NCBI RefSeq assembly: GCF_018881575.1
Contig: NZ_JACVQB010000003.1
Span: forward strand, 62,001 to 126,000
From: Polynucleobacter sp. UK-Kesae-W10
GTDB lineage: Bacteria; Pseudomonadota; Gammaproteobacteria; Burkholderiales; Burkholderiaceae
Direction: 5' to 3'
Length of the DNA stretch: 64,000 nt
The notes beneath the pieces are model-generated. The model saw nothing but the letters and a program-made list of their open reading frames with translations. It made no database searches and had not been told where the DNA came from. Position numbers and translations under genes: made by a program. Below are positions 2,903 through 62,649 of this stretch, one piece after another. Within the stretch, counting starts at the first letter, position 1. Each line of letters opens with the position of its first letter.

Positions 2903-4567
<1,665 letters not shown>

Positions 4568-33458: not shown

Positions 33459-34241
33459 ATGGGCAAACTCCAAAAAATTGAAGGCCCAAGCGCCGACTAT
33501 GATTCAGAACTACGCCTCTTACAAATTGAGCTTGTAAAAGCACAGCGTCAGATTATTTCTAGTGGCGCAAAACTACTCGTGATTTTTGAGGGCCGCGATA
33601 CTGCTGGCAAGGATGGAACTATCAAGGCGGTGACTGAGCACTTGAGTCCCCGTGAAGCGCATGTGATTGCCCTGGGGATTCCAACTGCCCATGAATCAGG
33701 GGAATGGTATTTTCAGAGATATGTAGCCGAACTACCCTCTTCTGGTGAAATTATTTTATTTAATCGCAGCTGGTACAACCGTGCTGGGGTTGAAAAGGTG
33801 ATGGGATTTTGTACCAAACCCCAATACGACCAATTTATGGCCACGGTAAATGAATTTGAAAGTCTTCTGGTTGGATCCGGTATTCAACTGATTAAATATT
33901 ACTTGGACATCGATAAGCAGGAACAAGTGCGTCGTATGGAAAGCAGAAAAACAGATCCCCTAAAGCAATGGAAAGTCAGCCCTATTGATCAGCAGGCCCA
34001 AAAGAAATGGAAGGCATATAGCGAAGCTCGCGACCTAATGCTGAAAAAAACCAGTACTGCAGATGCCCCTTGGACTGTTGTGGATGCCAATAACAAAAAA
34101 CTCACGCATCTCAACCTGATTAGAGACTTGCTTTCGCGAGTAAATTACCCTGATAAAAACCAAAAGATCCTCAAATTGGATTCAGGCATTGTGATGCCCT
34201 GTCCGCCACTGAGAAAAAAATCCCCAAAGGTAGCTCCATAA
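33459..34241 (+). CDS. ppk2: Polyphosphate kinase 2 family protein, copy 1
   Basis: PPK2 enzymes transfer phosphate between polyphosphate and nucleotides. This 260-residue single-domain protein has Walker A GRDTAGKDG (45-53), the YFQRYVAELPSSGEIILF lid region and the NRSWYNRAGVEKVMGF motif. In that motif the position normally occupied by the Walker B Asp is Asn102, whereas the second copy in this window (44729-45634) has Asp. Whether this changes activity or substrate is unknown. It forms an operon with the H1-like gene two bases upstream. Confidence 0.9.
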   Translation: MGKLQKIEGPSADYDSELRLLQIELVKAQRQIISSGAKLLVIFEGRDTAGKDGTIKAVTEHLSPREAHVIALGIPTAHESGEWYFQRYVAELPSSGEIILFNRSWYNRAGVEKVMGFCTKPQYDQFMATVNEFESLLVGSGIQLIKYYLDIDKQEQVRRMESRKTDPLKQWKVSPIDQQAQKKWKAYSEARDLMLKKTSTADAPWTVVDANNKKLTHLNLIRDLLSRVNYPDKNQKILKLDSGIVMPCPPLRKKSPKVAP

Positions 34242-40663: not shown

Positions 40664-42754
40664 ATGAATTTCTGGCGGCACGTGACGGATCAATCGATTG
40701 GCATTTTTCTAGGGCTACTATGCGCCAACTCCTTGGCCTGTGCGCAAACCGAACCTGAGACTTCTCTGCAAGTCAATGTGACAGGTGCACGCGATGATGG
40801 TCAAGGATTTTTATCTGCAAGTAAAGTCCTTACGGGCGATGAGTTACAAAATAAGTTGGGTGGCACATTGGGCGCAACTCTTGCCAATGAGCTGGGCGTA
40901 TCTGCCACTGGTTATGGGGCTGGTGCATCCAGGCCTGTTATTCGTGGACTAGAAGGTGCGCGTGTACAGATCCTGCAGAATGGTTTGTCGGTAGGCGATG
41001 TTTCTAGTATTTCAGCGGATCATGCTGTAGCTAGCCCGATGCAGAATACGCATCAAATTGAGATATTGCGCGGAGCATCAGCATTGTTATACGGCTCGGG
41101 TTCAAGCGGCGGCTTAGTGAATGTAGTGAATGACCGCATTGTGACTTCCCTTCCCGATGCCCTGTCTGGAGCCGTGAATACCAGTTATGAAACAGCAAAC
41201 CAAGGCAAGACTGGTAATTTAGAGCTCGATGCTCCCGCAGGACCATTGGCTTTACATCTGGACACTAGTATCAGTAATTCGAATAACTATCAAATTCCCG
41301 GTTATGCCGAACAGGGCGGTCCGAATGCCAATTGGGCCATCAATCCCGGCAATCCCGTCAACATCCCCTACAGCGGAAAACTACCCTTCTCTTATAGCAA
41401 TCAAAATAGTCTAGGGCTGGGAGCCTCCTATATCCGCGCCGATGGTTACACGGGTGTGTCTCTTGAGCGAATGAATCATAACTACGGGATCCCAACCGCT
41501 GAAGGTGGCTTCATTCAGCAATCGCAGAATCGTTATGATTTTGCGCATCAGTCGAATGATCCTTTTGATGGTTTCTCCTCAGTCAAAATCAGCGCTGCAA
41601 ACACGAACTATCAACATACGGAATTTACGAACAACGGTATAGCCTCCACCTTATGGAATAACACCGCAACTGAAGCGAGACTAGAGCTTGCTCACAAGGA
41701 GCTGCTGGGATTAAAAGGGATTATTGGCGCCCAGGTTACTGGTGCCACTTTGAATGCAAGCGACTTAACCACAAATAGCTATGCCATTGTTCCGCAAACC
41801 AAATCCAATGCTTCCGCCCTTTTTTGGGTTGAGGAAGGCCGTTATGGCGCTCTTAAAACTAGTCTTGGCGCACGTTATAGCTATACAGCACAAAACCCCA
41901 ATACCGCCACGCAATTTCCAGCTCAAAGCACGCAAGGATTTACCCCCAATACATACGGGCCCCCCGCTATTCAGAATCGACAATTTAATCTGATGTCTTA
42001 TTCCGCTGGCGGCATGCTTGATGTTGCCAAGGACTATGGATTGGGCTTGACCTATACCGTTTCGCAAAGAGCGCCAACACCTCAAGAACTGTATTCATAT
42101 GGCCCGCATGATTCAACAGCCACATTTGATATTGGCAATTCCAATCTTGGTACAGAGACCTCGCAGAACATTGAGTTGAGTTTTCAGAAAACCCTTGGCC
42201 TGGTTCGTAGCAAGGTGAGTTTGTATCGTAACCAATTTTCAAATTACATCTATGGCTTTTACACAGGCTCATATAGTCAGGCTAATGAAAACTTTTCAGT
42301 AGTCCAAGCCTCCCAAGCCAACGCCAATATTCGCGGTGCTGAGGGTGAGATAAGTTATAACTGGAATCAAACTGGCATTGGCGGACGTCTCTTTGGAGAT
42401 GTCTCCCAAGGCAGCTTTAACGCCGGCGGCAACCTGCCACTGCAACCAGCCCCAAGATTGGGTACAGAGCTCGCTTATCAACAGGGAGGCTGGCTTACAA
42501 GCGCCACTTACATCTATAGCTACCAACAAAATAGATTGGCGACCTGGGAAGTAGGTCCTACCCCCAGTTACAACCTGCTCAATGCGAACCTATCCTACAC
42601 AGAACGCATTGGAAAGATTAATTGGACTGGCTATCTTGCGCTAAAGAACCTACTCAATGAAGATATCCGATATGCAACCTCACCAATGGCAGTGCGTCTT
42701 TACGCTCCACAGCCTGGTAGAAGTTTGATGCTAGGTGTTCGCGCTGCTTTTTAG
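40664..42754 (+). CDS. TonB-dependent outer-membrane receptor, ZnuD-like
   Basis: A 696-residue receptor. After a signal peptide (ends near SLACAQ) comes the plug domain (LTGDELQNKLGGTLGATLANELGVSATGYG, RPVIRGLEGARVQILQNG, SADHAV, QIEILRGASALLYGSG), then a beta-barrel of about 500 residues ending in an aromatic-terminated strand (LMLGVRAAF). The GASRPVIRG and SADHA words match the ZnuD-type zinc and related metal receptors rather than siderophore receptors. Its neighbour DUF2946 protein also fits metal uptake. Metal identity is inference. Confidence 0.82.
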   Translation: MNFWRHVTDQSIGIFLGLLCANSLACAQTEPETSLQVNVTGARDDGQGFLSASKVLTGDELQNKLGGTLGATLANELGVSATGYGAGASRPVIRGLEGARVQILQNGLSVGDVSSISADHAVASPMQNTHQIEILRGASALLYGSGSSGGLVNVVNDRIVTSLPDALSGAVNTSYETANQGKTGNLELDAPAGPLALHLDTSISNSNNYQIPGYAEQGGPNANWAINPGNPVNIPYSGKLPFSYSNQNSLGLGASYIRADGYTGVSLERMNHNYGIPTAEGGFIQQSQNRYDFAHQSNDPFDGFSSVKISAANTNYQHTEFTNNGIASTLWNNTATEARLELAHKELLGLKGIIGAQVTGATLNASDLTTNSYAIVPQTKSNASALFWVEEGRYGALKTSLGARYSYTAQNPNTATQFPAQSTQGFTPNTYGPPAIQNRQFNLMSYSAGGMLDVAKDYGLGLTYTVSQRAPTPQELYSYGPHDSTATFDIGNSNLGTETSQNIELSFQKTLGLVRSKVSLYRNQFSNYIYGFYTGSYSQANENFSVVQASQANANIRGAEGEISYNWNQTGIGGRLFGDVSQGSFNAGGNLPLQPAPRLGTELAYQQGGWLTSATYIYSYQQNRLATWEVGPTPSYNLLNANLSYTERIGKINWTGYLALKNLLNEDIRYATSPMAVRLYAPQPGRSLMLGVRAAF

Positions 42755-42760
42755 GGTTGT

Positions 42761-43285
42761 CTAAAAATAGCGTAAGGCCACAAAACCTACTAAGCCCGCT
42801 GCCAAAATCACAAACACTGGATTGATCTTAGTGCGCAAAATCAAATAGAGAGTACATAAGGAGAGTGCCAAGGTGATTGGACTCACAATTGAAGCCTTTG
42901 CTACCGCATAAACGCCAGAGACCATGAGCCCAATAGAAATGGGCTCCAAGGAATCTTGAATGCAACGCCTCCATGGGCTTTCGCCAAAATGACTCCAGAG
43001 ACGCCCAGCATAAAAGCACAGCACGCTAGAAGGCAAAAAGAAAGCAATTAATACAATGCCCGCGCCGATGAGACCAGCAATCTTAAAGCCGATGATAAGA
43101 ACCATCAACATATTGGGGCCAGGTGCAACCTGGCCAATACTATACATATGGATAAATTGAGTATGGGTGATGCCAAACTGATGCAATAAGAGCGTTTGCA
43201 TTTCGGGCAATACAGCAGTCCCACCGCCTACGGCCAAAAGGGAAAGGAGACCAAACGTGAGACTTAACTGTAGTAATGCGTTCAT
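42761..43285 (-). CDS. Chromate transporter ChrA, second half-size subunit
   Basis: A 174-residue membrane protein of the CHR family, the second half of a split (short-chain) ChrA. It begins LLSLLAVGGGTAVLPEMQTLL and has QVAPGPNMLMVLIIGFKIAGLIGA. Paired half-size ChrA proteins normally export chromate. Its start overlaps the first half's stop by four bases. Here it is the last gene of a unit led by ppk2 and a CYTH-like gene with a Pho-box-like site, so an oxyanion other than chromate is worth considering. Confidence 0.86.
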   Translation of the reverse strand: MNALLQLSLTFGLLSLLAVGGGTAVLPEMQTLLLHQFGITHTQFIHMYSIGQVAPGPNMLMVLIIGFKIAGLIGAGIVLIAFFLPSSVLCFYAGRLWSHFGESPWRRCIQDSLEPISIGLMVSGVYAVAKASIVSPITLALSLCTLYLILRTKINPVFVILAAGLVGFVALRYF

Positions 43286-43857
43286 TTGGAAAGCTTAGGC
43301 CGATAGGTATAGATTGATATCGGAGCCATGATGAGCAGTACGAGTGGCAAAGAGAGCTTTGCAATACTCATTAAGCCAAATGTGCAGGCGATGATTAGGA
43401 TGGACTTTAAATGCTTCCAGTGTTGATCCCCTATACGATAGGTAATCGCGGCCAATAAGCCACAGGCACCTGCTGCAATCCCTGTGAGCAGGAGATTAGT
43501 TAAGGGATGGTCGGTATTGTTGGTATAGGCAATGCCAATTAATAGAACAAAAGCGGAACCCGGAATGATCAGGCCCAGCGTTGCTGCAATTGCGCCCCAG
43601 ATGCCACGCAAATGATCTCCCGCTAAAACAGCCAGGTTGACAGAGTTAAGTCCCGGCATAGTTTGGCTGATCGCTAGATAAGCCATAAATTCATCGGCGC
43701 TTAGCCACTTCTTTTTTTCAATTAAAAGAATGCGTTCGTAGGCAATAATTCCGCCACCAAAACTGACTGCTCCAATAATCAAAAACTGCCAAAACAGGTC
43801 ACGTAATGTGACTGGCGTTACCGACGTCTTACCGCCGTTGGTCTGCAGTGTACTCAT
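43282..43857 (-). CDS. Chromate transporter ChrA, first half-size subunit
   Basis: A 191-residue CHR-family membrane protein with ISFGGG-like AVSFGGGIIAYERILLIEKKKWLS and SQTMPGLNSVNLAVLAGDHLRG, the typical N-terminal half. It pairs with the next gene to make the full transporter. Its ATG overlaps the stop of the CYTH-like gene by four bases, tying transporter and CYTH protein to one translationally coupled operon. Confidence 0.88.
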   Translation of the reverse strand: MSTLQTNGGKTSVTPVTLRDLFWQFLIIGAVSFGGGIIAYERILLIEKKKWLSADEFMAYLAISQTMPGLNSVNLAVLAGDHLRGIWGAIAATLGLIIPGSAFVLLIGIAYTNNTDHPLTNLLLTGIAAGACGLLAAITYRIGDQHWKHLKSILIIACTFGLMSIAKLSLPLVLLIMAPISIYTYRPKLSK

Positions 43858-44684
43858 TCAGGCTTGCCGTATACCAAGGCGGTTTTGGTACTCCCTATTT
43901 GGAGCCAATCTGAAAGCTCTATTTGCAGCTTTTTGAAGAATTTATCTGCCCGTTTATGAGCCTTGTCTTGCTTGCGGTTTTCATCATTCACGCGATAGGA
44001 GAAGGCAAGTTCCCCCACCATCGGGTCGCCAACGCTTTTCATCCAAATAGCGATCTCGCAATGGGCCTGCACTCCATCGCCAAACACCAGGTTGCCCAAA
44101 GGCAAACAAGCCTCGAGAATCTTATTGGTATTACCGCCAACAATACGCAGCGGCAATTTTTTGTCGATAGCCAAGGAGTCTAGACCTGGAAAGAACTTGC
44201 AAACACTACTCAAGGTTCTTTCAAATAGATCATCAATCGGTACGGCGTCTAAGATGGCATTGTTAGAGTAAATTTGACGGCGAGAACCCAATTCATCACC
44301 ACGCAAGATTTCTTCCTTAAAACGAATGCGAGACTTGATCTTCTTTTGCGGCGTGGGATTAAATTTGGACGCCAAATCTAAGTCATGCGCCCTGCACTTC
44401 AGAGTGACTTCGGCGTAGTCATCAATCCAGACATTTTGTCTTGACTCTCTTACCCGCAAAATAATATTGTTGAGTCGAAAGTCCTGTCCAGGCGTGTCAT
44501 AGAAGTAAATGCTTCGCAAGCCGGTAGAGGCGTTATCGAGATGGAAAAAATCAACTTTGTTCTTTTTGCAGAAATTGAGAATTTGATTGCTAAGCTCTTC
44601 AATTTTGCTGCGACGATCAAGGCCTTGAGGCTTAATAAGGAGCTTAAATTCCCGATTGGTAATAGAAGGATGAATCTTTTTCAC
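43854..44684 (-). CDS. CYTH-like (triphosphate tunnel) superfamily protein
   Basis: A 276-residue protein I assign tentatively. Strand-like segments match the CYTH fold: an N-terminal REFKLLIK (in place of the ExExK signature), IYFYDTPGQDFRLNNIILRV then RES (the usual Y-D-T-x-L-R-x-R pattern), EVTLKCR, RFKEEI, and late strands CEIAIW and ELAFSYRV. CYTH enzymes hydrolyse triphosphates, and VTC polyphosphate polymerases share the fold. The first signature is not canonical, so activity is doubtful. It lies between ppk2 and chrA in one operon, with VTC-like meaning suggested by context. Confidence 0.55.
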   Translation of the reverse strand: MKKIHPSITNREFKLLIKPQGLDRRSKIEELSNQILNFCKKNKVDFFHLDNASTGLRSIYFYDTPGQDFRLNNIILRVRESRQNVWIDDYAEVTLKCRAHDLDLASKFNPTPQKKIKSRIRFKEEILRGDELGSRRQIYSNNAILDAVPIDDLFERTLSSVCKFFPGLDSLAIDKKLPLRIVGGNTNKILEACLPLGNLVFGDGVQAHCEIAIWMKSVGDPMVGELAFSYRVNDENRKQDKAHKRADKFFKKLQIELSDWLQIGSTKTALVYGKPE

Positions 44685-44728
44685 AATAACCTCTACTGTT
44701 TTTAGAGATTATGACCTAAATCTACAGA

Positions 44729-45634
44729 TTAGTAGACTTCTGGGACGTACATCTCCGGCGGCACGGGTCCGCGCAAGTAGTCTGGATTATGAACTCGAGC
44801 AGGCAGCGTAATAACTGGATGATCAATTTCTTTATAAGGAATTTGATTGAGCAAATGGGTGATGCAATTTAAACGAGCCTTTTTCTTATCATTTGCGGCT
44901 ACCACCCACCAAGGTGCTTCCGGTATGTGGGTGCGCTCCAACATAGTCTCTTTGGCTTTTGTATATTGCTCCCAAAGACGGCGGGCCTCTAAGTCCATTG
45001 GGCTAAGTTTCCACTGTTTTAAGGGATCATGAATACGCATCATGAATCGGTTGTACTGTTCGTCGTCAGAAATAGAGAACCAATACTTAATGAGAATGAC
45101 CCCCGAGCGAATCATCATGCGCTCTAAATCCGGGACAGTTCTTAAGAACTCCTCGTATTCATCATCCGTACAAAAGCCCATGACTTTTTCAACGCCAGCG
45201 CGGTTATACCAACTGCGATCAAACAGAACAATTTCTCCTCCAGCAGGTAGATGAGAAATATAGCGCTGGAAATACCATTGGGTTTTTTCACGTTCATTCG
45301 GAGCGGGCAAAGCAACCACCTTGCATACACGCGGATTTAGACGCTGAGTGATGCGCTTGATAGCACCACCCTTACCAGCAGAGTCGCGACCTTCAAAAAG
45401 AACTGCCACTTTTACATTGTTGGCAACAACCCAATCTTGCAATTTGACAAGCTCGCCCTGAAGTCTAAATAGCTCTCTAAAGTACACATTACGGGGGACC
45501 TGCGACCCACTATCACCATCTTGAGAAAGGCGATCATCATCGAGCTCCATTTCAAGCTCTTCATCCATGCTATCAAGAATCTCTTCTTGAGCCCGCTGGT
45601 ACCACTCTGCCATCTCTTTGTGCTTGGAAGTCAT
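44729..45634 (-). CDS. ppk2: Polyphosphate kinase 2 family protein, copy 2
   Basis: A 301-residue PPK2 with Walker A GRDSAGKGG (82-90), the lid region YFQRYISHLPAGGE and Walker B FDRSWYNRAGVEKVMGF (D139). An acidic N-terminal extension (LDSMDEELEMELDDDR) is absent from copy 1. It makes or uses polyphosphate with nucleotides. It leads a ppk2, CYTH-like, chrA, chrA operon and has a Pho-box-like site about 40 bp upstream of the start. Confidence 0.93.
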   Translation of the reverse strand: MTSKHKEMAEWYQRAQEEILDSMDEELEMELDDDRLSQDGDSGSQVPRNVYFRELFRLQGELVKLQDWVVANNVKVAVLFEGRDSAGKGGAIKRITQRLNPRVCKVVALPAPNEREKTQWYFQRYISHLPAGGEIVLFDRSWYNRAGVEKVMGFCTDDEYEEFLRTVPDLERMMIRSGVILIKYWFSISDDEQYNRFMMRIHDPLKQWKLSPMDLEARRLWEQYTKAKETMLERTHIPEAPWWVVAANDKKKARLNCITHLLNQIPYKEIDHPVITLPARVHNPDYLRGPVPPEMYVPEVY

Positions 45635-45674
45635 TCTAAATCTCTAGTATTTCTAATAGTTTACGCTCTAAGTT

Positions 45675-45692
45675 ATGACAAATTTATTACAG
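45675..45692 (-). promoter_or_regulatory. Candidate Pho box upstream of ppk2
   Basis: On the minus strand the heptamers CTGTAAT and TTGTCAT are separated by 4 bp (each 6/7 to CTGTCAT, 12/14 in total). The site lies between the acyltransferase stop and the ppk2 start, 40 bp upstream of the latter. Scored by eye only. Confidence 0.6.
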
Positions 45693-45696
45693 GCGT

Positions 45697-46479
45697 CTAG
45701 CGGGGTTTTCCAGCTAGGTATTGGGCAATAAGCTCATGGCTATGCAGGGCTAGCCATTTGCGGTCCGAGAGTGGATTAGGGGCGGATCCTGCGGGGCCAA
45801 AGAAATTCAGCTCTACTACCAGGTCACGAGCCCGCAGAATATTTGCCATAGACTCCAATAAGCCCATATCCCCAATAAAAGCAGCCGCATCTGATCGCTC
45901 GCCGGTAGTTTTAGAAATATAGCGAATAGCTAAGGTATACACGGGTACGCGGGCGATCAGTGCAGATTCAAAAAGATTGGGCTTAAAGGGGCGAACCGTC
46001 TCACCATTGGTTGAGGTGCCCTCGGGAAAAATGCAAATAGAATCTGATTCGAGTGCTTTACTCATCGCACCCACCACAACATGTGCATGTCGCGTGCTAT
46101 CTCGTTTAATAAACACGGTACCCAACTGCTTGGCCATCCAGCCAAAGATTGGCCATTGCTCTACCTCAGACTTTGCTACAAATCGAATGGGCCTAAAGGC
46201 GTTAATCGCATGAATATCCATCCAAGAGATGTGATTGGAGGCTAATAGATAAGAATCGTTCGGCAGCACTTCAGGATGAAGAATGCGTAACTCAATACCA
46301 AAAATTGTCAGTAACTTTTTCGACCACTCTTGTATGTGGTGATTTTTAATATCTCTAGAAGATCTTGGAAAAATAAATACCAAGGTTAATACCCCAGCAA
46401 TTACATGGCTCCAAATGGATATCCAGCGGATCATTTTGCTGTTGTGCATGCTACCGGCATTTGAAGAATGGTGGCTCAT
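45697..46479 (-). CDS. Lysophospholipid acyltransferase (PlsC/OlsA-like)
   Basis: A 260-residue membrane-associated acyltransferase with an N-terminal hydrophobic segment, motif I NHISWMDIHAI (the HX4D variant H-I-S-W-M-D), EQWPIFGWMAKQLGTVFIKRD, and FPEGTSTNGE. The family acylates lyso-lipids in phosphatidic acid synthesis. Because it is divergent from plcP and near an olsB-type gene, it may be the OlsA acyltransferase that completes ornithine lipid; this is inference. A PlsC housekeeping role cannot be excluded. Confidence 0.8.
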   Translation of the reverse strand: MSHHSSNAGSMHNSKMIRWISIWSHVIAGVLTLVFIFPRSSRDIKNHHIQEWSKKLLTIFGIELRILHPEVLPNDSYLLASNHISWMDIHAINAFRPIRFVAKSEVEQWPIFGWMAKQLGTVFIKRDSTRHAHVVVGAMSKALESDSICIFPEGTSTNGETVRPFKPNLFESALIARVPVYTLAIRYISKTTGERSDAAAFIGDMGLLESMANILRARDLVVELNFFGPAGSAPNPLSDRKWLALHSHELIAQYLAGKPR

Positions 46480-46513
46480 AAATTAACAATATAAAGCATG
46501 TTTATCACCCGCT

Positions 46514-46553
46514 TCGTCATGAAACTGACTTAAAAGTGTCATGACCCTTACAT
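46514..46553 (+). promoter_or_regulatory. Candidate tandem Pho box upstream of the plcP-agt lipid operon
   Basis: Four heptamers lie at exact 11-bp spacing: TCGTCAT (46514), CTGACTT (46525), GTGTCAT (46536) and CTTACAT (46547), scoring 5, 5, 6 and 5 of 7 to CTGTCAT, with 4-bp spacers. The array ends 24 bp before the plcP start. On the opposite strand GGGTCAT, CTTTTAA and GTTTCAT also follow the 11-bp phase, so bidirectional use toward the acyltransferase is possible. Confidence 0.65.
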
Positions 46554-46577
46554 ACTGCTTGTGCTTAATACGGTTTC

Positions 46578-47387
46578 ATGATGCATTACAGAGCCATCTG
46601 GATTTCGGACGTACACCTCGGCACATCAGGGTGTCAGGCAAACTACCTTCTCGATTTTTTAAAACACAATGAAGCTGATCAGTTTTATCTGGTCGGCGAC
46701 ATCATTGATGGTTGGCGGCTCAAAAAATCCTTCTATTGGCCTCAGGCCCATAACGATGTAGTCCAAAAATTATTGCGCAAGGCCCGTAAAGGTGCTGAGG
46801 TGATCTATGTACCCGGCAACCATGATGAAAGCGCTCGCCAATTCTTTGGACTTTCTTTTGGCGATGTCAAAGTTGTTGAGGAAGTGATTCATACGACCTT
46901 AGATGGTCGAAAATTATGGGTAACGCACGGTGACCTTTTTGACGGTGTTATGCAGTATGCCAAGTGGCTGGCCTATGTAGGTGACACACTGTATTCATGC
47001 ATTTTGTACATCAATCGCTATTTCAATATGTTGCGGGTCAAGATGGGACTGCAGTACTGGTCCCTCTCCCAATACTTAAAGCACCAGGTCAAAAATGCGG
47101 TGAGCTATATCGCTGATTTTGAACACATCATGGCCAGGGAAGCCCGGTTGCGTGGCTGCGATGGCGTAGTGTGCGGTCATATCCATAAGGCAGAGATCCG
47201 TGAAATTGATGGCCTGCTCTATTGCAACGATGGCGATTGGGTTGAAAGCTTAACCGCTCTTGTAGAAACCCATGAAGGTGAATTGAAAATCGTGCATTGG
47301 CCGTTTATTAAAGGCGAGCCTGCTGAACATCTTGAAATTACTTTCCAACCTGCTGTTGAGTCCACTTTAAAAGAGGCTGTGCTATGA
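46578..47387 (+). CDS. plcP: PlcP-like phospholipase C (metallophosphoesterase)
   Basis: A 269-residue calcineurin-type phosphoesterase: SDVHLGT (D11, H13), YLVGDIIDGW (D41), VPGNHDE (N81, H82), THGD and GHIHKAE give the two-metal site. It belongs to the group of UDP-diacylglucosamine hydrolase relatives that in Sinorhizobium and marine bacteria act as PlcP, releasing diacylglycerol from phospholipids under Pi starvation. Its stop overlaps a glycosyltransferase start by four bases, the plcP-agt pairing. A Pho-box-like array lies upstream. No ribosome site precedes ATG 46578, so the message may be leaderless. LpxH-type activity is the alternative. Confidence 0.78.
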   Translation: MMHYRAIWISDVHLGTSGCQANYLLDFLKHNEADQFYLVGDIIDGWRLKKSFYWPQAHNDVVQKLLRKARKGAEVIYVPGNHDESARQFFGLSFGDVKVVEEVIHTTLDGRKLWVTHGDLFDGVMQYAKWLAYVGDTLYSCILYINRYFNMLRVKMGLQYWSLSQYLKHQVKNAVSYIADFEHIMAREARLRGCDGVVCGHIHKAEIREIDGLLYCNDGDWVESLTALVETHEGELKIVHWPFIKGEPAEHLEITFQPAVESTLKEAVL

Positions 47388-48412
47388 AAATTATGATCAT
47401 CACTGATGCATGGGATCCACAAGTTAATGGTGTAGTACGCACATTAAAACAAACTCGCGCTGAATTAATATCCATGGGCCATGAAGTCGAAATGATTACT
47501 CCAACAGGCTTTAAATCCATTCCCTGCCCTACCTATCCCGATATTGCTCTATCCCTTTTCCCCGGTAAGGAAGTGGCCCGTCGCATTAAAGAATTTGCCC
47601 CTGATGCCATGCATATTGCTACAGAAGGTCCTTTGGGGCTATCTGCTAGAGCCTATGCAGTTAAAAACAATCTCCCCTTTTCTACGGCCTATCACACGCG
47701 CTTTCCAGAATACGTCAAAGCACGTACAGGTATTCCGCTTGCGATTACTTACGCATTTATACAGTGGTTTCATGGCCCCTCTATGGCAGTCATGGCTCCC
47801 ACCATTGTGGTGAAAAATGATCTGGAGCAATATGGACTTCAAAATGTGGTGCTTTGGTCACGCGGTGTGGACTTAGATATTTTTAAGGTCCAAGAGTCTA
47901 AAGCTTTAAATACAGCGCATCCAATTTTTCTATATGTTGGACGTGTTGCGGTTGAAAAGAATATCAACGCATTTTTAGAGTTAGATTTACCAGGATCAAA
48001 ATGGGTTGTTGGTGATGGGCCGGCGATGGCAGGCATTAAAGAGAAGTACCCAGAAATCAATTATTTGGGTGTTTTGCAGCAGCACGAGCTTGCAAAAGTG
48101 TATGCCGCTGCAGATGTCTTTGTATTCCCAAGTAAAACAGATACTTTTGGTCTAGTTTTACTGGAAGCAATGGCTTGCGGAACGCCTGTAGCCGCCTATC
48201 CAGTGACAGGACCGATTGATGTCTTGGGCAACTCTAAGGCTGGCGCCATGAATGAGGATCTACGTGAAGCATGTATCGAAGCATTGAAGATACCGCGCGA
48301 GCTTGCACGCGCGCATGCCGAAAAATTCTCTTGGAGGGCCGCATCGGAAGAGTTTGCGAAGCACTTAAAGCCTGTGCCGACTCCTGAAGTTCATATTACC
48401 GCTATAGCTTAA
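47384..48412 (+). CDS. Agt-like glycosyltransferase (GT4 family)
   Basis: A 342-residue GT-B glycosyltransferase with TDAWDPQVNGVVRTL at the N-terminus and the GT4 EX7E-type region (VFVFPSKTDTFGLVLLEAMACGTPVAAYPV) at the C-terminus. Adjacent and coupled to plcP, it matches the Agt enzymes that glycosylate diacylglycerol to monoglucosyl- or glucuronosyl-DAG when phospholipid is degraded. Sugar donor is unknown. Mannosyltransferase families look similar, so assignment rests partly on context. Confidence 0.78.
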   Translation: MKIMIITDAWDPQVNGVVRTLKQTRAELISMGHEVEMITPTGFKSIPCPTYPDIALSLFPGKEVARRIKEFAPDAMHIATEGPLGLSARAYAVKNNLPFSTAYHTRFPEYVKARTGIPLAITYAFIQWFHGPSMAVMAPTIVVKNDLEQYGLQNVVLWSRGVDLDIFKVQESKALNTAHPIFLYVGRVAVEKNINAFLELDLPGSKWVVGDGPAMAGIKEKYPEINYLGVLQQHELAKVYAAADVFVFPSKTDTFGLVLLEAMACGTPVAAYPVTGPIDVLGNSKAGAMNEDLREACIEALKIPRELARAHAEKFSWRAASEEFAKHLKPVPTPEVHITAIA

Positions 48413-48415
48413 GGA

Positions 48416-48829
48416 ATGACATTGAGCGCCCCCTATCATATTGACCAAAATCCTCATAAAGGGAATCGAGGTCTAGCGCGCGCTTGGCATGCCGCTAAGA
48501 ATTCCTGGTGTGGGCTTGTATATGCTTTTCAGGAAGAAAGTGCTTTTAGACAAGAACTGACATTACTTGTATTGCTAGCTCCTCTTGCCTGCTTCTTACC
48601 AGTCACCCATTTAGAAAAAGCGCTATTGATCGCTTCATTAATTATGGTCTTAGTAGTTGAGCTGCTCAATTCTAGCGTTGAGGCGGCTATTGACCGAATT
48701 TCATTTGATCACCATGACCTATCGAAGCGGGCCAAAGACTTTGGTTCGGCAGCGGTGATGTTGGCGCTATTGATCGCTGTACTCATGTGGTCAGCGGTTT
48801 GTCTTCCAATTGTCTTCAAATCGTCATGA
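48416..48829 (+). CDS. dgkA: Diacylglycerol kinase
   Basis: A 137-residue DgkA-type membrane kinase that phosphorylates diacylglycerol to phosphatidic acid. It has the signature VVELLNSSVEAAIDRISFDHHDLSKRAKDFGSAAV (here ELLNSSVEAAIDR and KRAKDFGSA) and three membrane helices. Starting three bases after the agt stop, it can recycle the diacylglycerol that PlcP liberates. Confidence 0.93.
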   Translation: MTLSAPYHIDQNPHKGNRGLARAWHAAKNSWCGLVYAFQEESAFRQELTLLVLLAPLACFLPVTHLEKALLIASLIMVLVVELLNSSVEAAIDRISFDHHDLSKRAKDFGSAAVMLALLIAVLMWSAVCLPIVFKSS

Positions 48830-48869
48830 TCACAAACTACGATAAATAAAACTTCCTACAAGGCTAACT

Positions 48870-49796
48870 ATGTCTGATATCCCCAACCCAATCGCTGCTT
48901 TTGAGATTTTCTCGCCTAGAAAGAAAAAAGAAGCTAGCCGCTCCAAGTTCAATCCACTCAAAAAGCTTTCGAAAAAGCTGGCCAAAAAACTCTTTGGTAA
49001 AAAGTTTGCAACAAAAGCTCGCGCTCAATTAAGTGTTGTTGAAGAAATTGCAGCAGTTCCTCTAGTTGCTAAGGCCAAAAAACCAGCATTTCAAATTGAA
49101 TGGGCTAGTAGCTCAAGTGAAATAAAAGAGGCTCAAAGACTTCGCTATAAAGTGTTTGCAGAGGAAATGGGTGCAAATCTTTCTCAGAACGCTGAAGGAT
49201 TGGATATTGATGAGTTTGATGCCTATTGCGATCACCTCCTAATCCGCGATCAAGATTCTTTAAAGGTGGTTGGAACCTATCGTGTGCTTCCACCGCATAA
49301 GGCCTTAGAGATTGGACGCTTGTACTCTGACTCTGAGTTTGATCTTTCTAGGTTAGATCATTTGCGTCCAAAGTTAGTGGAATTAGGCAGATCTTGCGTT
49401 CACCAAGACTATCGCTCAGGCGCAGTCATCATGGCCCTCTGGAGCGGCCTTGCGCAATACATGCTTAAAAATGATTATGAAATCATGCTCGGTTGCGCCA
49501 GCATTCCGATGGCCGACGGTGGGCACTTTGCAGCTAGCCTGTACAACTCACTGGGCAATGAACAAATGGCGCCAACAGAGTTTCACGCCTTTCCTCGTTT
49601 GCCACTCCCCTTAGACAAGCTGAATGGGGGCTTGGATGTTGAGGCCCCCCCACTCATTAAAGGCTACCTGAAATTAGGCGCGAAGATTTGCAGCTCACCC
49701 GCATGGGATCCAGACTTCAATACTGCTGACTTGCTCACGATGCTTCGCTTGTCCGACATTAATCCACGTTATGCCAAGCATTTCTTAGGTCTGTAA
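48870..49796 (+). CDS. OlsB-like N-acyltransferase (GNAT, hemolysin-type family)
   Basis: A 308-residue protein with a Lys-rich N-terminal extension (about 15-50, KKLSKKLAKKLFGKK) and an acyl-ACP-dependent acyltransferase domain: EAQRLRYKVFAEEMGA, DIDEFDAYCDHLLIRD, VGTYRVL, ELGRSCVHQDYRSG, LGCASIPMADGG. This is the OlsB family, which joins a 3-hydroxy acyl chain to ornithine as the first step of ornithine-lipid synthesis. Position after plcP, agt and dgkA supports a phosphorus-free lipid role. The basic extension could bind membrane. Confidence 0.75.
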   Translation: MSDIPNPIAAFEIFSPRKKKEASRSKFNPLKKLSKKLAKKLFGKKFATKARAQLSVVEEIAAVPLVAKAKKPAFQIEWASSSSEIKEAQRLRYKVFAEEMGANLSQNAEGLDIDEFDAYCDHLLIRDQDSLKVVGTYRVLPPHKALEIGRLYSDSEFDLSRLDHLRPKLVELGRSCVHQDYRSGAVIMALWSGLAQYMLKNDYEIMLGCASIPMADGGHFAASLYNSLGNEQMAPTEFHAFPRLPLPLDKLNGGLDVEAPPLIKGYLKLGAKICSSPAWDPDFNTADLLTMLRLSDINPRYAKHFLGL

Positions 49797-49821
49797 TAGC
49801 GGAATGCTGGTGTAACTTAGT

Positions 49822-49852
49822 AAAAAAGCCGTTTCACTGAAACGGCTTTTTA
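49822..49852. terminator. Bidirectional rho-independent terminator
   Basis: A-run, then GCCGTTTCA and TGAAACGGC stem around a CTG-type loop, then a T-run. It serves both the lipid operon (plus) and ppx (minus), which converge here. Confidence 0.9.
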
Positions 49853-49867
49853 TTGCTTTAGATTACT

Positions 49868-51442
49868 TTATTTAAGATTGACTTGATAGGAGCGGCCAAC
49901 CCTCTCCCATTCGGTTGCTTCTTTCAATAAGCTAAATTCTGTCAGGGGATGCTCAGCAGCCCATTCTTGAGGGAGGCTGACCAAATAAGATCCATCGCGC
50001 TCCGAAACCTTAACCTTTGGGAAGTTGGTATCACTACGACCACGGCAGAGTACTTGCGCTAAACGTAGACAGAACAGCATACGCCAGTCCTGGAAGTTCG
50101 GATTATTGGCAAGTTTTCCTAACTTACCCGCATGACCAATTAATAGCGCAGCTAGGCGTGCTTGATCGTTTTTAGAAAACCCTGGCATATCTGCATTACC
50201 CGCAATGTAGGCCGAATGCTTGTGATAACCATTATGGGAAATGGATAGTCCAATTTCATGAAGATTGGCCGCCCACTGCAATAAGGCGACATTATCATCA
50301 CGACTTTCAGTCTCAGGCTTTGGAAGTTGAAGCAAGAAATCTGCAGCAAGCTTGCCCACACGATTCGCTTGATCGCGATCGACCGCATAACGTTGCATGA
50401 ACTGCTCAACGGTGACATAGCGCATATCATGATGCTGCGATCGTCCCAACAGGTCATATAAGACACCGCTCCGCAGTGCGGCATCGGTTACTTCCATACT
50501 TTCGATCCCAAGCTCATCAAAAACGGCGATCATGATGGCCAGGCCGCCAGGCCAAACTGAGCGTCTATCGTCTTTGAGTCCGACCAACTCTACTTGATTG
50601 ACATTCTCATACCTCAATAAATGCTTTTTAAGGGCTTTCAGACCCTCACGTGTAATTAAGCCGCTACCAGCAATTACACGGCCCATGGTGAGTCCGTCAC
50701 CATGGCCATTAAAGTCATTAGCAGCAATTAAATCCGCTAGAGCCCTTGCAGTACCAGAGGATCCGATGGCCTGCTTCCAGCCGCTTTTAAGGTAAGCGCC
50801 TGAGATCACCTGAATTTCTCTACGAGCGGCTAACTCAGCCTCTTTGAATGCGTGTGCATCAATATCGCCCTTAGGAAAGAAACGCATGCTGTGCGATACG
50901 CAGCCGATATACAAACTTTCCATTAATTTAGGCTCATAGCCATTGCCGATAATAAATTCAGTTGAGCCCCCGCCAATATCCACAACTAGGCGATTGCCTT
51001 GTATAGCCTGCACCTCATGCGCTGCGCCAATATAAATCAGGCGAGCCTCTTCAACCCCTGCGATCACCTCAATCGGAAAACCTAAAGCTTCTTGCGCGTC
51101 ATCAACAAACTGCTGAGCATTTTTTGCAACCCTCAAGGTATTTGTTGCTACTGCTCGTACATTGGCCGGATCAAACCCCCTGATGCGCTCGCCAAACCTG
51201 CGGATAGCCGTTAGACCTCTTTGGTAAGCGTCGTTACCTAGTAACTTATTGTCGGTGAGGCCCGCTGCCAAGCGAACGGATTCACGTAGGGTATCAATGG
51301 GTCGTAATTGGGTGCCAGAGGGTGTGTTTACTGCTTGCGCTACCAACATCCGAAAACTGTTAGATCCTAAATCTACTGCGGCCACGAGGTCTGCAGAATT
51401 CGATAAAGGATCTACGGTAGGACTGGTCAAAATATTCCCCAA
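49868..51442 (-). CDS. ppx: Exopolyphosphatase, Ppx/GppA family
   Basis: A 524-residue enzyme that removes terminal phosphates from polyphosphate or converts pppGpp to ppGpp. It has the ASKHA phosphate-binding motifs AVDLGSNSFRMLVA (residue about 24), VDIGGGSTEFII, the SSGTARALA segment and a C-terminal HD-type domain. Length and context favour polyphosphatase. A Pho-box-like array lies 32-60 bp upstream, and ppk2 is nearby. Confidence 0.93.
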   Translation of the reverse strand: MGNILTSPTVDPLSNSADLVAAVDLGSNSFRMLVAQAVNTPSGTQLRPIDTLRESVRLAAGLTDNKLLGNDAYQRGLTAIRRFGERIRGFDPANVRAVATNTLRVAKNAQQFVDDAQEALGFPIEVIAGVEEARLIYIGAAHEVQAIQGNRLVVDIGGGSTEFIIGNGYEPKLMESLYIGCVSHSMRFFPKGDIDAHAFKEAELAARREIQVISGAYLKSGWKQAIGSSGTARALADLIAANDFNGHGDGLTMGRVIAGSGLITREGLKALKKHLLRYENVNQVELVGLKDDRRSVWPGGLAIMIAVFDELGIESMEVTDAALRSGVLYDLLGRSQHHDMRYVTVEQFMQRYAVDRDQANRVGKLAADFLLQLPKPETESRDDNVALLQWAANLHEIGLSISHNGYHKHSAYIAGNADMPGFSKNDQARLAALLIGHAGKLGKLANNPNFQDWRMLFCLRLAQVLCRGRSDTNFPKVKVSERDGSYLVSLPQEWAAEHPLTEFSLLKEATEWERVGRSYQVNLK

Positions 51443-56296: not shown

Positions 56297-56797
56297 TTAT
56301 GACTTTGATTCGTGATGAATAGAATGCAGCCTATCTTTTATCTGCAAGTGATCTAATTTATCCAATGGGATGTCTAAGAGCAATTCAATGCGATTTCGCA
56401 AACCCATCTCGACTCCTCGAAATGCATTCCAGACTTTTTCATCAGAGCCGATCACTGTTGCAGGATCTTCAAACCCCCAGTGTGCTGTTGCTGGATGTCC
56501 AGGCCAATAAGGGCACTCCTCTCCAGCGGCTGAGTCGCAAACCGTAATGATGAAATCCATATGAGGAGAGTCCTCGCGACCATACTCATCCCAACTTTTA
56601 CTTCTAATAAGCGTAAGTGGATAACCAATTTCTTTAACAATCTTCAGTGCAATGGGATGAATATATGCATTAGGCCTTGATCCAGCTGAATAGCCAATGA
56701 ACCTTCCGTGACTCAAGGTGGTTGCTAAGGCTTCAGCCATGATGGATCGTGCTGAGTTACCAGTGCAGAGAAATAGAATGTTTAATGGCTTTGCCAT
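56297..56797 (-). CDS. Arsenate reductase / low-molecular-weight phosphatase family
   Basis: A 166-residue LMW tyrosine-phosphatase-fold protein with the P-loop FLCTGNSARSIMAE (C11 in CX5R) and DFIITVCDSAAGEECPYWPG, the layout of thioredoxin-linked ArsC. It would reduce arsenate, a phosphate analogue that enters through phosphate transporters. It lies between a 59-residue protein and a tautomerase-type protein in a three-gene unit. Confidence 0.85.
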   Translation of the reverse strand: MAKPLNILFLCTGNSARSIMAEALATTLSHGRFIGYSAGSRPNAYIHPIALKIVKEIGYPLTLIRSKSWDEYGREDSPHMDFIITVCDSAAGEECPYWPGHPATAHWGFEDPATVIGSDEKVWNAFRGVEMGLRNRIELLLDIPLDKLDHLQIKDRLHSIHHESKS

Positions 56798-58126: not shown

Positions 58127-59425
58127 CTAGGGGCTTATCCTTTCCTTTGGAAAGCGCAGCATAAACATACTACCTTTGCCTGGAGTGCTCTCAATCATTA
58201 GTTGAGCTTGGTGCCTACTGGCAATATGTTTCACAATGGCCAACCCGAGCCCAGTTCCGCCAGTATCACGCGATCGACTTCTGTCCACTCGATAAAAACG
58301 CTCAGTAAGCCTAGAGAGATGTTCTGAGGCTATACCCGGCCCCGTATCTAATACCGAGAATTCGCCTTGCCCTTGCTGATTTATAGACCACCGCACGTTG
58401 ATTGCACCCACATCTGGTGTATAGCGAATAGCATTGGACACTAAATTACTAAAAGCAGAAAGAATTTCCCTTTCATCACCAAGTAAGTCTGCAGTGGTTG
58501 AAATATCAAAGCTGAAAGCATGCCTACCCTGGGATAGCGCCTCAGCATCATTGCGCAAGAGCGCCATCAAGGTCCCAATATGAACTGGGTTATTTGCCGC
58601 CGGTAAAGTATTGGCCTCAAGATTAGCAAGGGTAAGCAAATCCTCTACCAAACATTTCATCCGCTGGGCTTGCGACATCATCATGTCGAAATACTGGTCT
58701 CGTTGGGTCTTTTCAAGCTCCAAGGATTGAACTGTCTCCAAAAAACCCATCAGAACTGTTATGGGGGTTCTCATTTCATGAGAGACATTAGCTACGAAAT
58801 CCCTTCTCATTGCATCCGCTTTTTGAAGGTCTGTCACATTCTGAACAAGCAGTAGATGCCGTTTTTGACCGAAGGGAAAAGCTTGCAACATTAAGCTCAG
58901 GCTGCTGTCAGGACCCATACGCTCAATTAATAATGGCTCTTCAAAATTACGCTTAGCAAGATATTGAATAAATTCAGGGCGGCGAATTAGGAAGTTAATT
59001 CGCTGCATAACATCGCGCTTGAATATGAGCCCAAAAAAATGTTCTGCAATACTGTTGCACCATTCGATTTGGTCATTTTCATCAAGCATGACAATACCAT
59101 TTGGTGATGCCTGGAAAGCCTCAATAAAGTGATCGTACTGCTGTTTAATTTGCCGATTTGATTGCTTTAAGGCCCTCACTAGGCGCTGCAGTCTAAAAAA
59201 AATCTCCTCCCATAAACCGCTAGGAAGTGGCATATTCTCAACTGAATCTGTTTGGATGTACTTACCTAAGCGCGCAAGATTGACGTACGAGTAAATCAAG
59301 GGAATAGCTAAAATCAAAATTCCGACGGCAATAGCGATATCTGAACCCCAGTTTGCAAGCGCTATATAGGCTGCTATAAAAGCTACACAAAGTATCAGAA
59401 TGAAGCGGGTTAATGCAGAAATCAT
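58127..59425 (-). CDS. phoR: Phosphate regulon sensor histidine kinase
   Basis: A 432-residue kinase. Two membrane helices (about 5-23 and 29-47) with almost no periplasmic loop, a charged linker, a PAS domain (about 98-200), then HisKA with H216 in VANVSHEMRTPITVLMG and the HATPase region (NLVSNAIRYTPDVGA, TGGTGLGLAIVKHI). Lack of a sensing loop is typical of PhoR, which senses through PstSCAB-PhoU. Last gene of the pst operon. Confidence 0.93.
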   Translation of the reverse strand: MISALTRFILILCVAFIAAYIALANWGSDIAIAVGILILAIPLIYSYVNLARLGKYIQTDSVENMPLPSGLWEEIFFRLQRLVRALKQSNRQIKQQYDHFIEAFQASPNGIVMLDENDQIEWCNSIAEHFFGLIFKRDVMQRINFLIRRPEFIQYLAKRNFEEPLLIERMGPDSSLSLMLQAFPFGQKRHLLLVQNVTDLQKADAMRRDFVANVSHEMRTPITVLMGFLETVQSLELEKTQRDQYFDMMMSQAQRMKCLVEDLLTLANLEANTLPAANNPVHIGTLMALLRNDAEALSQGRHAFSFDISTTADLLGDEREILSAFSNLVSNAIRYTPDVGAINVRWSINQQGQGEFSVLDTGPGIASEHLSRLTERFYRVDRSRSRDTGGTGLGLAIVKHIASRHQAQLMIESTPGKGSMFMLRFPKERISP

Positions 59426-59489
59426 GCCACCATCTTAGACTATCTCTGAACCCAAGGTCAGAAATACTGGGGCAATAATGTCGAAAACC

Positions 59490-60203
59490 TTAAGAATCTG
59501 TGGGGGTTTTGGTAATGCGATAGCCGCTACCTCTGACCGTTTCGATAAATCGATCGCAGTCCAATGGGGCAAGCGCAGCCCTCAAGCGCTTGATATGCAC
59601 ATCTACAGTGCGTTCTTCAATGTAGACCTCGTTTCCCCAGACGTTATCTAATAAACTGGTACGAGAATGAACACGCTCAGGATTAGACATGAAAAACTGT
59701 AGCAGGCGATACTCAGTTGGACCTAGTGATACAGGCTTAGGATCATGATTTGGCCATATAGCGAACACTCTATGGGAGCTAGGTTCAAGTTTTAATGGTC
59801 CGATAGTGATGGGACCGGTATCTTCAATAGGGGTTTGGCGACGTAAGAGCGCCCTAACCCTTGCAATAAGCTCTTTAGGAGAAAATGGCTTAGTAACGTA
59901 GTCATCAGCGCCCGAATCTAGACCCATCACCTTATCAGCCTCTTCGCTCTTCGCTGTTAGCATTAAGATGGGCAGACCGCGGGTGCGATCATTGGCACGC
60001 AATTCTTTTGCAAACTGAACGCCGGATTTACCAGGCAGCATCCAATCAAGAATGACAAGGCTTGGTAAACGATCTTTCATCAAACCCAGCGCGAGCTCAG
60101 TCTGCATCGCTTTTTCGACCTCATAGCCTGCGTGGGTCAAATTAATTGCAATAAGCTCTGCAATGGATGGCTCATCTTCTACTACCAGTATGCGGTGAGT
60201 CAT
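59490..60203 (-). CDS. phoB: Phosphate regulon response regulator
   Basis: A 237-residue OmpR-type regulator. Receiver residues are D53 in ILDWMLPGKSG, LTAK and KPFSP; the C-terminal winged helix includes RVHSRTSLLDNVWG and YIEERTVDVHIKRLR. It binds Pho boxes, several of which are proposed in this window. It lies 16 bp after phoU. Confidence 0.95.
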   Translation of the reverse strand: MTHRILVVEDEPSIAELIAINLTHAGYEVEKAMQTELALGLMKDRLPSLVILDWMLPGKSGVQFAKELRANDRTRGLPILMLTAKSEEADKVMGLDSGADDYVTKPFSPKELIARVRALLRRQTPIEDTGPITIGPLKLEPSSHRVFAIWPNHDPKPVSLGPTEYRLLQFFMSNPERVHSRTSLLDNVWGNEVYIEERTVDVHIKRLRAALAPLDCDRFIETVRGSGYRITKTPTDS

Positions 60204-60219
60204 TGTATTTGATCTAAAC

Positions 60220-60924
60220 TTATTTAGTGGCTTCGCGTACTAAATCCTCGTGCGGAATATGACGCACGTCAGAGCCTTTAGCAATATAAATTACAAACTC
60301 AGCGATGTTCTTAGCATGATCGCCAATTCGCTCGATCGCTTTTGCAATCGTAAGCATATCTAAGCCGGTACTAATCGTATGCGGATCCTCGGACATATAA
60401 GTAATCAACTTACGGACAAAGCCTCGGAATTCTTCATCAATTTGACGATCTTCAGCAACCACTTCTGCGGCCGCAACAGTATCCAATCTTGCAAAAGCAT
60501 CAAGACTACGGCGCAATAGATTGATTGCCATTTGACCTGACAAGCGAATTTCAGCAACGTTGATATTATGTGGTGCGCCAGATTCAATCAAGCGCTTAGT
60601 ACGTTTTGCAACGCGCTCAGCCTCATCTCCGGCACGCTCTAAATTGGTAATTGCTTTAGAGACGGCCATGACAAGACGCAAATCTCGCGCAGTAGGCTGA
60701 CGACGAGCAATAACCTCCGTACAAGCTAAGTCAATTTGAATTTCTAGATCATTTACGAGCTTTTCATTCTCAATAACGGTATTGCACGTGTCCACGTCCA
60801 TCTGAGTAAATGCGCGCATAGCAGTTGCAATCTGGGACTCTACAAGTCCTCCCATTTCGAGTAAACGACTTGAGAGTGAATTGAGATCAGCATCAAATTG
60901 TGAGGATAGGTGTTTATCTGGCAT
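60220..60924 (-). CDS. phoU: Phosphate signalling protein PhoU
   Basis: A 234-residue all-helical protein of two PhoU repeats. I start at ATG 60924 (GGGAGA upstream; MPDKHLSSQFDADLNSL), giving the normal length; another ATG at 60945 would overlap pstB's end region. Typical patterns LACTEVIARRQPTARDLRLV and IERIGDHAKNIAEFVIY are present. It links PstB to PhoR to keep Pho genes off in high Pi. Confidence 0.95.
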   Translation of the reverse strand: MPDKHLSSQFDADLNSLSSRLLEMGGLVESQIATAMRAFTQMDVDTCNTVIENEKLVNDLEIQIDLACTEVIARRQPTARDLRLVMAVSKAITNLERAGDEAERVAKRTKRLIESGAPHNINVAEIRLSGQMAINLLRRSLDAFARLDTVAAAEVVAEDRQIDEEFRGFVRKLITYMSEDPHTISTGLDMLTIAKAIERIGDHAKNIAEFVIYIAKGSDVRHIPHEDLVREATK

Positions 60925-60937
60925 GGTAGTCTCCCTT

Positions 60938-61786
60938 TTAACCAAAGCGGCCGGTTATATAGTCTTCGGTTTCTTTGCGCTTGGGCTTAATAAAAATCTC
61001 ATCCGTTTTTCCGTACTCAACCAAACTTCCAAGATACATGTACGCAGTGTAATCCGATACGCGTGCGGCTTGCTGCATATTATGAGTAACAATAGCAATC
61101 GTGTACTCATGCTTGAGCTCGTTAATCAACTCTTCAATTTTTCCTGTAGAAATTGGATCTAATGCAGAGGTGGGCTCATCCAGGAGAATAACGGAGGGCT
61201 TAACGGCGACACCACGTGCAATACACAAACGTTGTTGTTGCCCACCCGATAAAGAAAGGCCGCTTTGATTTAACTTATCCTTTGCCTCTGTCCAGAGGGC
61301 AGCTTTATTTAAGGCCCACTCCACACGTTCATCCATTTCTGATCGGGAGAGTTTTTCATATAAGCGAACACCAAAGGCAATGTTCTCATAAATAGACATT
61401 GGAAATGGCGTTGGTTTTTGGAAAACCATACCAATGCGGGAGCGCAGTAGATTGAGATCCTGCCCTGGCTCAAGAATATTTTGGCCATAGAAGTTAATCT
61501 CACCCTCTGCTCGTTGACCTGGATACAGGTCATACATACGATTGAGCGTGCGAAGCAAAGTCGACTTTCCACAACCTGAAGGGCCAATAAAAGCAGTCAC
61601 TTTTCCTTGCTCAATATCGAGATTGATATTCTTCAAGCCCTGAAATGCGCCATAAAAGAAGTTTAAATTTCTAACTTCCAAGGCATTAATAGCATTCTGC
61701 CCGGTCTGTTGATTGGTTGATTCCACTTTACCCCCTTGACCATCAATCTTGTTTAAGTCAAACATTGTTTTCATATTGCTCATCAT
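60938..61786 (-). CDS. pstB: Phosphate ABC transporter ATP-binding protein
   Basis: A 282-residue ATPase: Walker [10 protein letters not shown], signature LSGGQQQR, Walker [12 protein letters not shown]. It has about 30 extra N-terminal residues before the usual [10 protein letters not shown] start. It powers Pi import through PstA and PstC. Its start overlaps the pstA stop by four bases. Confidence 0.96.
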
Positions 61787-62649
61787 CCTTGTACCTTCTC
61801 ACGGAATACCACTCGTGCCAGAATATTTAAACCAAGTACGGCGAATGTAATGAGAAGTGCCCCACCCCAAGCTAATTCAACCCAGTTGTCATACGGGCTC
61901 ATCGCAAATTGGAAAATAACAACCGGCAAATTAGCCATTGGCGCATTCATATTGGTGGAAAAGAATTGGTTATTTAGCGCAGTAAACAATAGTGGTGCAG
62001 TTTCGCCGCTAACGCGTGCCAACGCCAATAAGATGCCTGTCATCACCCCGCTTTGGGCGGCACGCAAGGTAATCATGAAGGCGACCTTCCACTTTGGTGT
62101 ACCCAAAGCATAAGCAGCTTCACGCAGACTTCCTGGAACTAGACGAAGCATATTCTCTGTGGTTCGCACAACAACCGGAATAGCAATCAAAGCAAGTGCA
62201 ATTGTGCCAGCCCAGCCTGAAAAATGCTTTGCTTGTGCAACCACAAATGCATATACAAACAAGCCAATAACAATAGATGGGGCTGAGAGCATGATGTCTG
62301 TAACAAAACGGGTGACTGAAGCCACACGGCTTCGGTCACCATATTCCGAGAGGTATAAGCCTGCGAGAACACCAATTGGCGTGCTAATCAGAGTACAAAA
62401 TCCAACCAGTAGCAAGCTGCCAACAATGGCATTTGCTAATCCGCCGCCATCAGAGCCCGGGGCTGGGGTACTGTGAGTAAAAAGAGTGAGATCAATGGCA
62501 GAGAAACCCTTGATGACCAAAATACTCAGGATCCATAGCAGGAACACCATGCCCAAAAGCATCGCCCCCATAGAAAGGGTCAGACCAATTTTATTGACGC
62601 GCTTACGTCTCGAAAAAATAGATGGATCAATATTAGATGTATTGTTCAT
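61783..62649 (-). CDS. pstA: Phosphate ABC transporter permease PstA
   Basis: A permease of about 288 residues with six membrane helices and the loop [21 protein letters not shown] use ATG 62649, which overlaps the pstC stop by four bases; an earlier ATG at 62691 would overlap it by 46. Confidence 0.93.

Follow-up and report, generated by a model that had tools for sequence, protein, structure and literature searches.

Why should a polyphosphate kinase gene be followed by a chromate-type transporter in a lake Polynucleobacter? This question is raised by positions 42,761–45,692 of the 64,000-nucleotide stretch analysed here (the window) from Polynucleobacter sp. UK-Kesae-W10. CHR proteins are known as small-oxyanion transporters; most annotations call them chromate pumps, although they are widespread in settings where chromate is of no concern. 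Four genes lie on the reverse strand: ppk2 (45634–44729; 301 aa; PPK2 Pfam 357.1 bits; TIGR03707 373.1 bits, cut-off 301.8), a gene with a GTG start for a CYTH-like protein of the triphosphate-tunnel (TTM) fold, named CYTHL here (44684–43854; 276 aa), and two short-chain CHR transporter halves, ChrN (43857–43282; 191 aa) and ChrC (43285–42761; 174 aa). The CYTHL/ChrN and ChrN/ChrC junctions are both ATGA overlaps, and ppk2 is upstream of CYTHL across a gap of 44 bp, so the genes and stop-start spacings on which an earlier note had based a four-gene operon are real. This spacing suggests that the four genes are co-transcribed.

Comparison with related loci indicated that a smaller module underlies the four-gene operon, which is a local variant of it. 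Judged by gene order, the conserved unit is CYTHL–ChrN–ChrC, without ppk2. We compared 59 loci of the Polynucleobacter type, comprising 28 related loci, locus L066 and 30 loci out of the 53 matching genus genomes; some genomes are included twice (G348 as L066 and L085), and L072 is the window itself. In 58 of these loci CYTHL was followed by ChrN and then ChrC, all in the same orientation, and in the 59th (L028) the contig stops within CYTHL. The gene upstream of CYTHL was variable: ppk2 in 31 loci, glmM in 10, terC in nine, a transglutaminase-like gene in eight and a contig edge in one (for the three families other than ppk2, the Pfam check was made on one example each). On the other side of the module, a TonB receptor gene was present in 41 of the 59 loci, in both ppk2 and glmM contexts; in the window this TonB-dependent receptor gene (40664–42754, forward strand) is convergent and ends 6 bp from ChrC. 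In locus L111, the TonB gene directly follows ppk2 with no module between them. A CYTHL match was found in 53 of 121 genus genomes (46 of the 96 more complete ones). Among the CYTHL relatives listed, the closest with an organism name was that of P. wuianus, 87% identical to the protein of the window. In Polynucleobacter necessarius PPGSP2, a shortened ChrN open reading frame (ORF; L015, 8838–9290) and a dgkA divided between two ORFs (3878–4311) are consistent with gene decay.

Outside the genus, searches of 274, 398 and 240 genomes (partly overlapping sets) yielded 15 genomes with a CYTHL match. Five of them (G068, G600, G691, G1088 and G981), from five families, carried CYTHL, ChrN and ChrC in this order. 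G068, whose CYTHL has the same sequence as a database protein named Candidatus Contendobacter, belongs to the class of the window; the other four share only its phylum. The earlier note had proposed a search for co-occurrence in other genomes, and the neighbourhood is indeed conserved beyond the genus. The stretches fetched around the module in these five genomes showed no ppk2. Its inclusion in the system was therefore rejected, as ppk2 adjoins the module in 31 of 59 loci only. Within the same taxonomic order, the only further match of a single-sequence query among 250 genomes was to a genome of the same genus. Plasmid-borne copies were not found in PLSDB at E 1e-5 with two family members as queries. 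In G981 the module appears to be decaying (L071, 7412–9655), with a truncated ChrC next to a transposase-like ORF and a CYTHL whose first strand is out of frame.

The CHR pair of the module is distinct from other CHR proteins. Both halves scored far above the PF02417 cut-off of 28.6 bits (ChrN 122.7, ChrC 110.2) and so belong to the CHR superfamily. The 'split ChrA' of the earlier note is more aptly described as a short-chain CHR pair of the ordinary kind, with two adjacent single-domain PF02417 proteins. Unlike other such pairs, ChrN and ChrC fall in their own clade and are preceded by a TTM-fold gene; ChrN has PGL where other pairs have PGP or PGG, and G100 where others have P. Against the NCBIfam ChrA/ChrB equivalogs, both scored well short of the cut-offs. 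Among the residues that linked ChrN keeps and that are rare in other sequences are S32, Y40, L70 and G100; those of linked ChrC include G51, M61, F82 and G124. The structure model of ChrN was poor (pLDDT 51.5) and was left unused. The same genome encodes two more CHR units, a short-chain pair and a long-chain protein (L042, 8614–9674; L043, 7686–9023), outside the CYTHL-linked clade.

Starting from ChrN, 134 of 396 proteobacterial genomes matched, and among 30 ChrN loci fetched, CYTHL was present in the four best-scoring only, although the fourth (104.8 bits) was barely above the fifth (102.9 bits). CYTHL-linked ChrN formed one clade (15 of 43 rows; support 97/93, recovered in 96% of bootstrap trees), as did linked CYTHL (98/96; 9 of 18 rows). 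For linked ChrC, two changes were needed when the very long row L161 was included, and one change (100/100) without it. The branching of linked CYTHL and ChrN was largely matching: both trees separated Polynucleobacter from the other five genomes, and both grouped L039 with L056 and L070 (100/99 in each). The placement of L057 and L071 differed between the two trees, with weak support in both. The clades and altered residues suggest that linked ChrN/ChrC is a separate CHR branch, specialised in its substrate or its control.

These trees also bear on whether CYTHL and the CHR pair might be co-transcribed and yet act separately, CYTHL being for example a stand-alone phosphohydrolase. Such hitch-hiking would fit the 10 of 15 non-genus genomes in which no ChrA was found in the stretches fetched around CYTHL. 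We consider it unlikely, given that the linkage has held across at least two classes and four upstream contexts with largely matching trees, and that gene order is the same in all five linked non-genus cases.

CYTHL was predicted with confidence as a triphosphate-tunnel beta-barrel, which bore out the earlier assignment of the 276-residue protein to the CYTH fold. It scored 13.7 bits against Pfam CYTH (PF01928; cut-off 23.2), the relatives L036 and L057 had no Pfam CYTH match, and none of the members tested had a Pfam or NCBIfam match over cut-off. Sequence profiles against the PDB gave chance matches to ribosomal L48 only, PHROGs gave nothing useful, and the bacterium's own genome yielded no canonical CYTH protein. 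When profiles were compared with each other, 20 of the 28 canonical CYTH proteins fetched being used, the match was weak (P 0.0043, probability 8%) but set the register of the first motifs. The L036 member was related to 5829 database proteins at E 0.001. The relatives L037, L058, L059 and L061 look secreted, with signal-peptide-like N-termini, a TSREYK/GSREYK motif and no ChrA; those of L059 and L061 adjoin a lipoprotein-like ORF (by eye).

The residue pattern was consistent across 38 CYTHL sequences. Both tunnel arginines of the RxR motif (R77, R79) and the glutamates E12 and E125 were kept in 38/38. The N-terminal ExExK motif was incomplete: position 10 was N in 13 and Y in 25, with E12 and K14 kept. 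In the strand-8 ExE, which binds metals 1 and 2, E225 was kept in 38/38, and the second position was A (30) or S (8). The register of strand 8 was set by motif position and is our reading; that of E125 was likewise set by position. As read from these residues, metal site 1 is kept and site 2 is largely lost. CYTHL thus differs in all 38 sequences from the TTM tripolyphosphatases (E. coli YgiF, plant TTM3, HpAC1); it also falls below the Pfam CYTH cut-off and is longer than the plant TTM enzyme chains (roughly 200 residues). A standard two-metal tripolyphosphatase was rejected as the first reading, since one Glu each of ExExK and ExE is missing. Class IV adenylyl cyclases are recognised by HFxxxxExExK and the loss of the central Arg (PMC8233210); this assignment was also rejected, because no HF was seen by eye at that spacing and the central R77 is kept.

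Another parallel is the yeast VTC polyphosphate polymerase, described as likewise combining a TTM-fold protein with a membrane part and having metal site 2 absent or reduced. A device of this kind, with the TTM-fold protein making or threading a phosphate chain that the CHR pair would carry across the membrane, seems most improbable. The CHR proteins are known for small oxyanions, the parts here are separate genes with CHR membrane proteins, and the 276-residue CYTHL model consists of a tunnel-type domain only, with a lower structural Z to VTC4 than to triphosphatases. In VTC4, four acidic-patch residues are reported to be replaced by basic ones (PMC4641920), whereas CYTHL partly keeps the acidic patch (E12 and E125) and has no such basic replacements there. 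No paper linking a CYTH/TTM protein to a CHR transporter was found among the open-licence papers that our searches listed. The CYTHL–ChrN–ChrC pairing is real, conserved and apparently undescribed, and a function can be proposed for it.

What, then, is the role of phosphate? Upstream of ppk2, between it and an OlsA-like gene, is the heptamer pair CTGTAATAAATTTGTCAT (45692–45675, reverse strand; CTGTAAT and TTGTCAT separated by AAAT). It consists of two direct TGTMAY-type repeats with an 11-bp period, as expected of the Pho regulon. In the 64-kb window the pattern TGTMAYNNNNNTGTMAY occurred once (0.07 expected), and 6 of 100 shuffles had at least one match; TGTMAYNNNNNTGTCATA had two matches in the 2.04-Mb genome and none for the reversed control. 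With two mismatches permitted, a related pattern gave three genome sites and six in the control, so weak Pho-like sites are not enriched genome-wide. In relatives, the best site before ppk2 was TGTAAY (or a one-base variant), five bases and TGTCAT in 25 of 25 distinct ppk2-context regions, with scores of at least 12 of 14 in 23 and 11 in two. Since the sites are weak when taken singly (0 to 40% of 200 region shuffles matched their score), the evidence for a Pho box is its conservation, and in this respect the site described in the earlier note was real.

The Pho box is a property of ppk2 and not of the module. None of 24 regions outside the ppk2 context scored 13 or more, and the five that reached 12 did so at other places. 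Among 13 ppk2 loci with no module after ppk2, 10 had an exact match and three had variants recognised by eye, so the box is kept where no module follows. The idea of an oxyanion transporter tied to polyphosphate metabolism held in part. The polyphosphate link is a lineage-specific arrangement, because the module also occurs behind glmM, terC and transglutaminase-like genes, no ppk2 was found in the stretches around it in the outgroup, and the box is ppk2's own.

The locus itself offers an ordinary reason for the Pho box, which the earlier note had omitted: positions 45697–51442 of the window are a phosphate-starvation and lipid-remodelling region. It contains the OlsA-like acyltransferase upstream of ppk2 (45697–46479, reverse; NF052553 117.6 bits, below the cut-off of 300) and, on the forward strand, a metallophosphoesterase (46578–47387; PF12850 51.1 bits; LpxH-type models below cut-off only), a GT4-type glycosyltransferase (47384–48412; NF053787 87.3 bits, cut-off 480), the prokaryotic diacylglycerol kinase dgkA (48416–48829; PF01219 111.3 bits) and an OlsB-like N-acyltransferase (48870–49796; NF052554 180.2 bits, cut-off 350); ppx is also in this region. 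By their position, the metallophosphoesterase is probably PlcP-like and the glycosyltransferase Agt-like. A second, weaker Pho-box-like site (46526–46542, forward, two mismatches) lies in the divergent region before the metallophosphoesterase. Remodelling with PlcP and ornithine lipids under phosphate starvation is described for other proteobacteria. Further along are genes read by eye, from sequence and order, as phoR, phoB, phoU and pst (58127–63635). A second PPK2 is encoded at 33459–34241 (forward; TIGR03707 341.9 bits, over cut-off), and in 10 of the 12 relatives L106–L117 the counterpart of this gene and the first ppk2 converge directly.

In such a setting, the CHR pair might serve to remove by-catch: under phosphate starvation, high-affinity importers of phosphate and other anions would admit toxic analogues, the CHR pair would export them and CYTHL would be an accessory or sensor. 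An ArsC-like protein is encoded near the Pho genes (56297–56797, reverse; 79.1 bits, below the arsenate reductase cut-off of 174.3). In marine picocyanobacteria, the phosphate-related genes enriched in low-phosphate areas are reported to include those for ChrA and for ArsB, an arsenate efflux pump (PMC10119275), and a chromate transporter is reported among Prochlorococcus genes over-represented at BATS, together with phoR, phoB and phoA (PMC3686209). We regard this explanation as possible but doubtful. The linked ChrN/ChrC stand in a clade apart and have altered motif residues, two more CHR units are encoded in the genome, the module also occurs away from any Pho site, and the constant TTM-fold partner would be left unexplained. 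An association of chrA with low-phosphate picocyanobacteria is reported (PMC10119275, PMC3686209, PMC7522525). In Synechococcus PCC 7002, the ChrA gene A1320 is reported to be up on phosphate deprivation and needed for phosphate-limited growth, the mutant being phosphate-sensitive (PMC11358556). These CHR genes are likewise tied to phosphate starvation, but unlike the module here, no CYTHL partner is named for them in the accessible parts of these reports (PMC11358556, PMC10119275).

We favour, with a probability of about one in two, a reading in which CYTHL is the dedicated TTM-fold partner of a distinct CHR oxyanion transporter: it would sense or process a ligand of the phosphate-chain type and control the transporter, which in this lineage would be under PhoB. 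CYTHL–ChrN–ChrC would then be a self-contained transport module. ChrN and ChrC, with one CHR domain each, would be the two subunits of an oxyanion transporter from a distinct CHR subclade, and CYTHL would be its cytosolic partner, probably in a complex. Its tunnel might hold triphosphate, a short polyphosphate or a nucleoside triphosphate (NTP) with one metal, and the binding or slow processing of this ligand could gate or energise the transporter. The cargo is most likely a phosphate-related oxyanion. In one Polynucleobacter group, the position of the module behind the Pho box and ppk2 may lead to its production on phosphate starvation, as polyphosphate and NTP pools shift.

Several observations weigh against this proposal. 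CYTHL had no match in 68 of the 121 genus genomes. Nine of the ten ChrA-less non-genus genomes were placed in the CYTHL tree (G146 was left out) and form its other side; because of these relatives, several with signal-peptide-like N-termini, the CYTHL fold family is not devoted to CHR. Catalysis of the usual type is doubtful, as two site-2 glutamates are missing; in addition, the G1088 CYTHL has Q at position 12 and that of G981 has no first strand in frame. Phosphate, as far as the upstream regions indicate, is not a general cue for the module, since no Pho box was found before it in 24 regions outside the ppk2 context.

A long shot beyond the favoured reading is a bacterial counterpart of the VTC logic, in which a one-metal TTM-fold protein would act on a phosphate chain or nucleotide and drive or meter its passage, or that of phosphate, through the CHR pair. 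If this were true, the CHR superfamily would gain a phosphate- or polyphosphate-handling branch directly controlled by a phosphate-chain sensor. CYTHL points to a large TTM-fold family whose members tested have escaped Pfam and NCBIfam, and the module connects with the need of a phosphate-limited cyanobacterium for chrA, which is so far unexplained. The Pho switch ahead of the module in this bacterium suggests that phosphate is linked to its cargo or control. With its dedicated phosphate-tunnel partner and, in one lineage, a Pho box, this CHR subclade offers a tractable handle on the natural cargo and control of CHR transporters.
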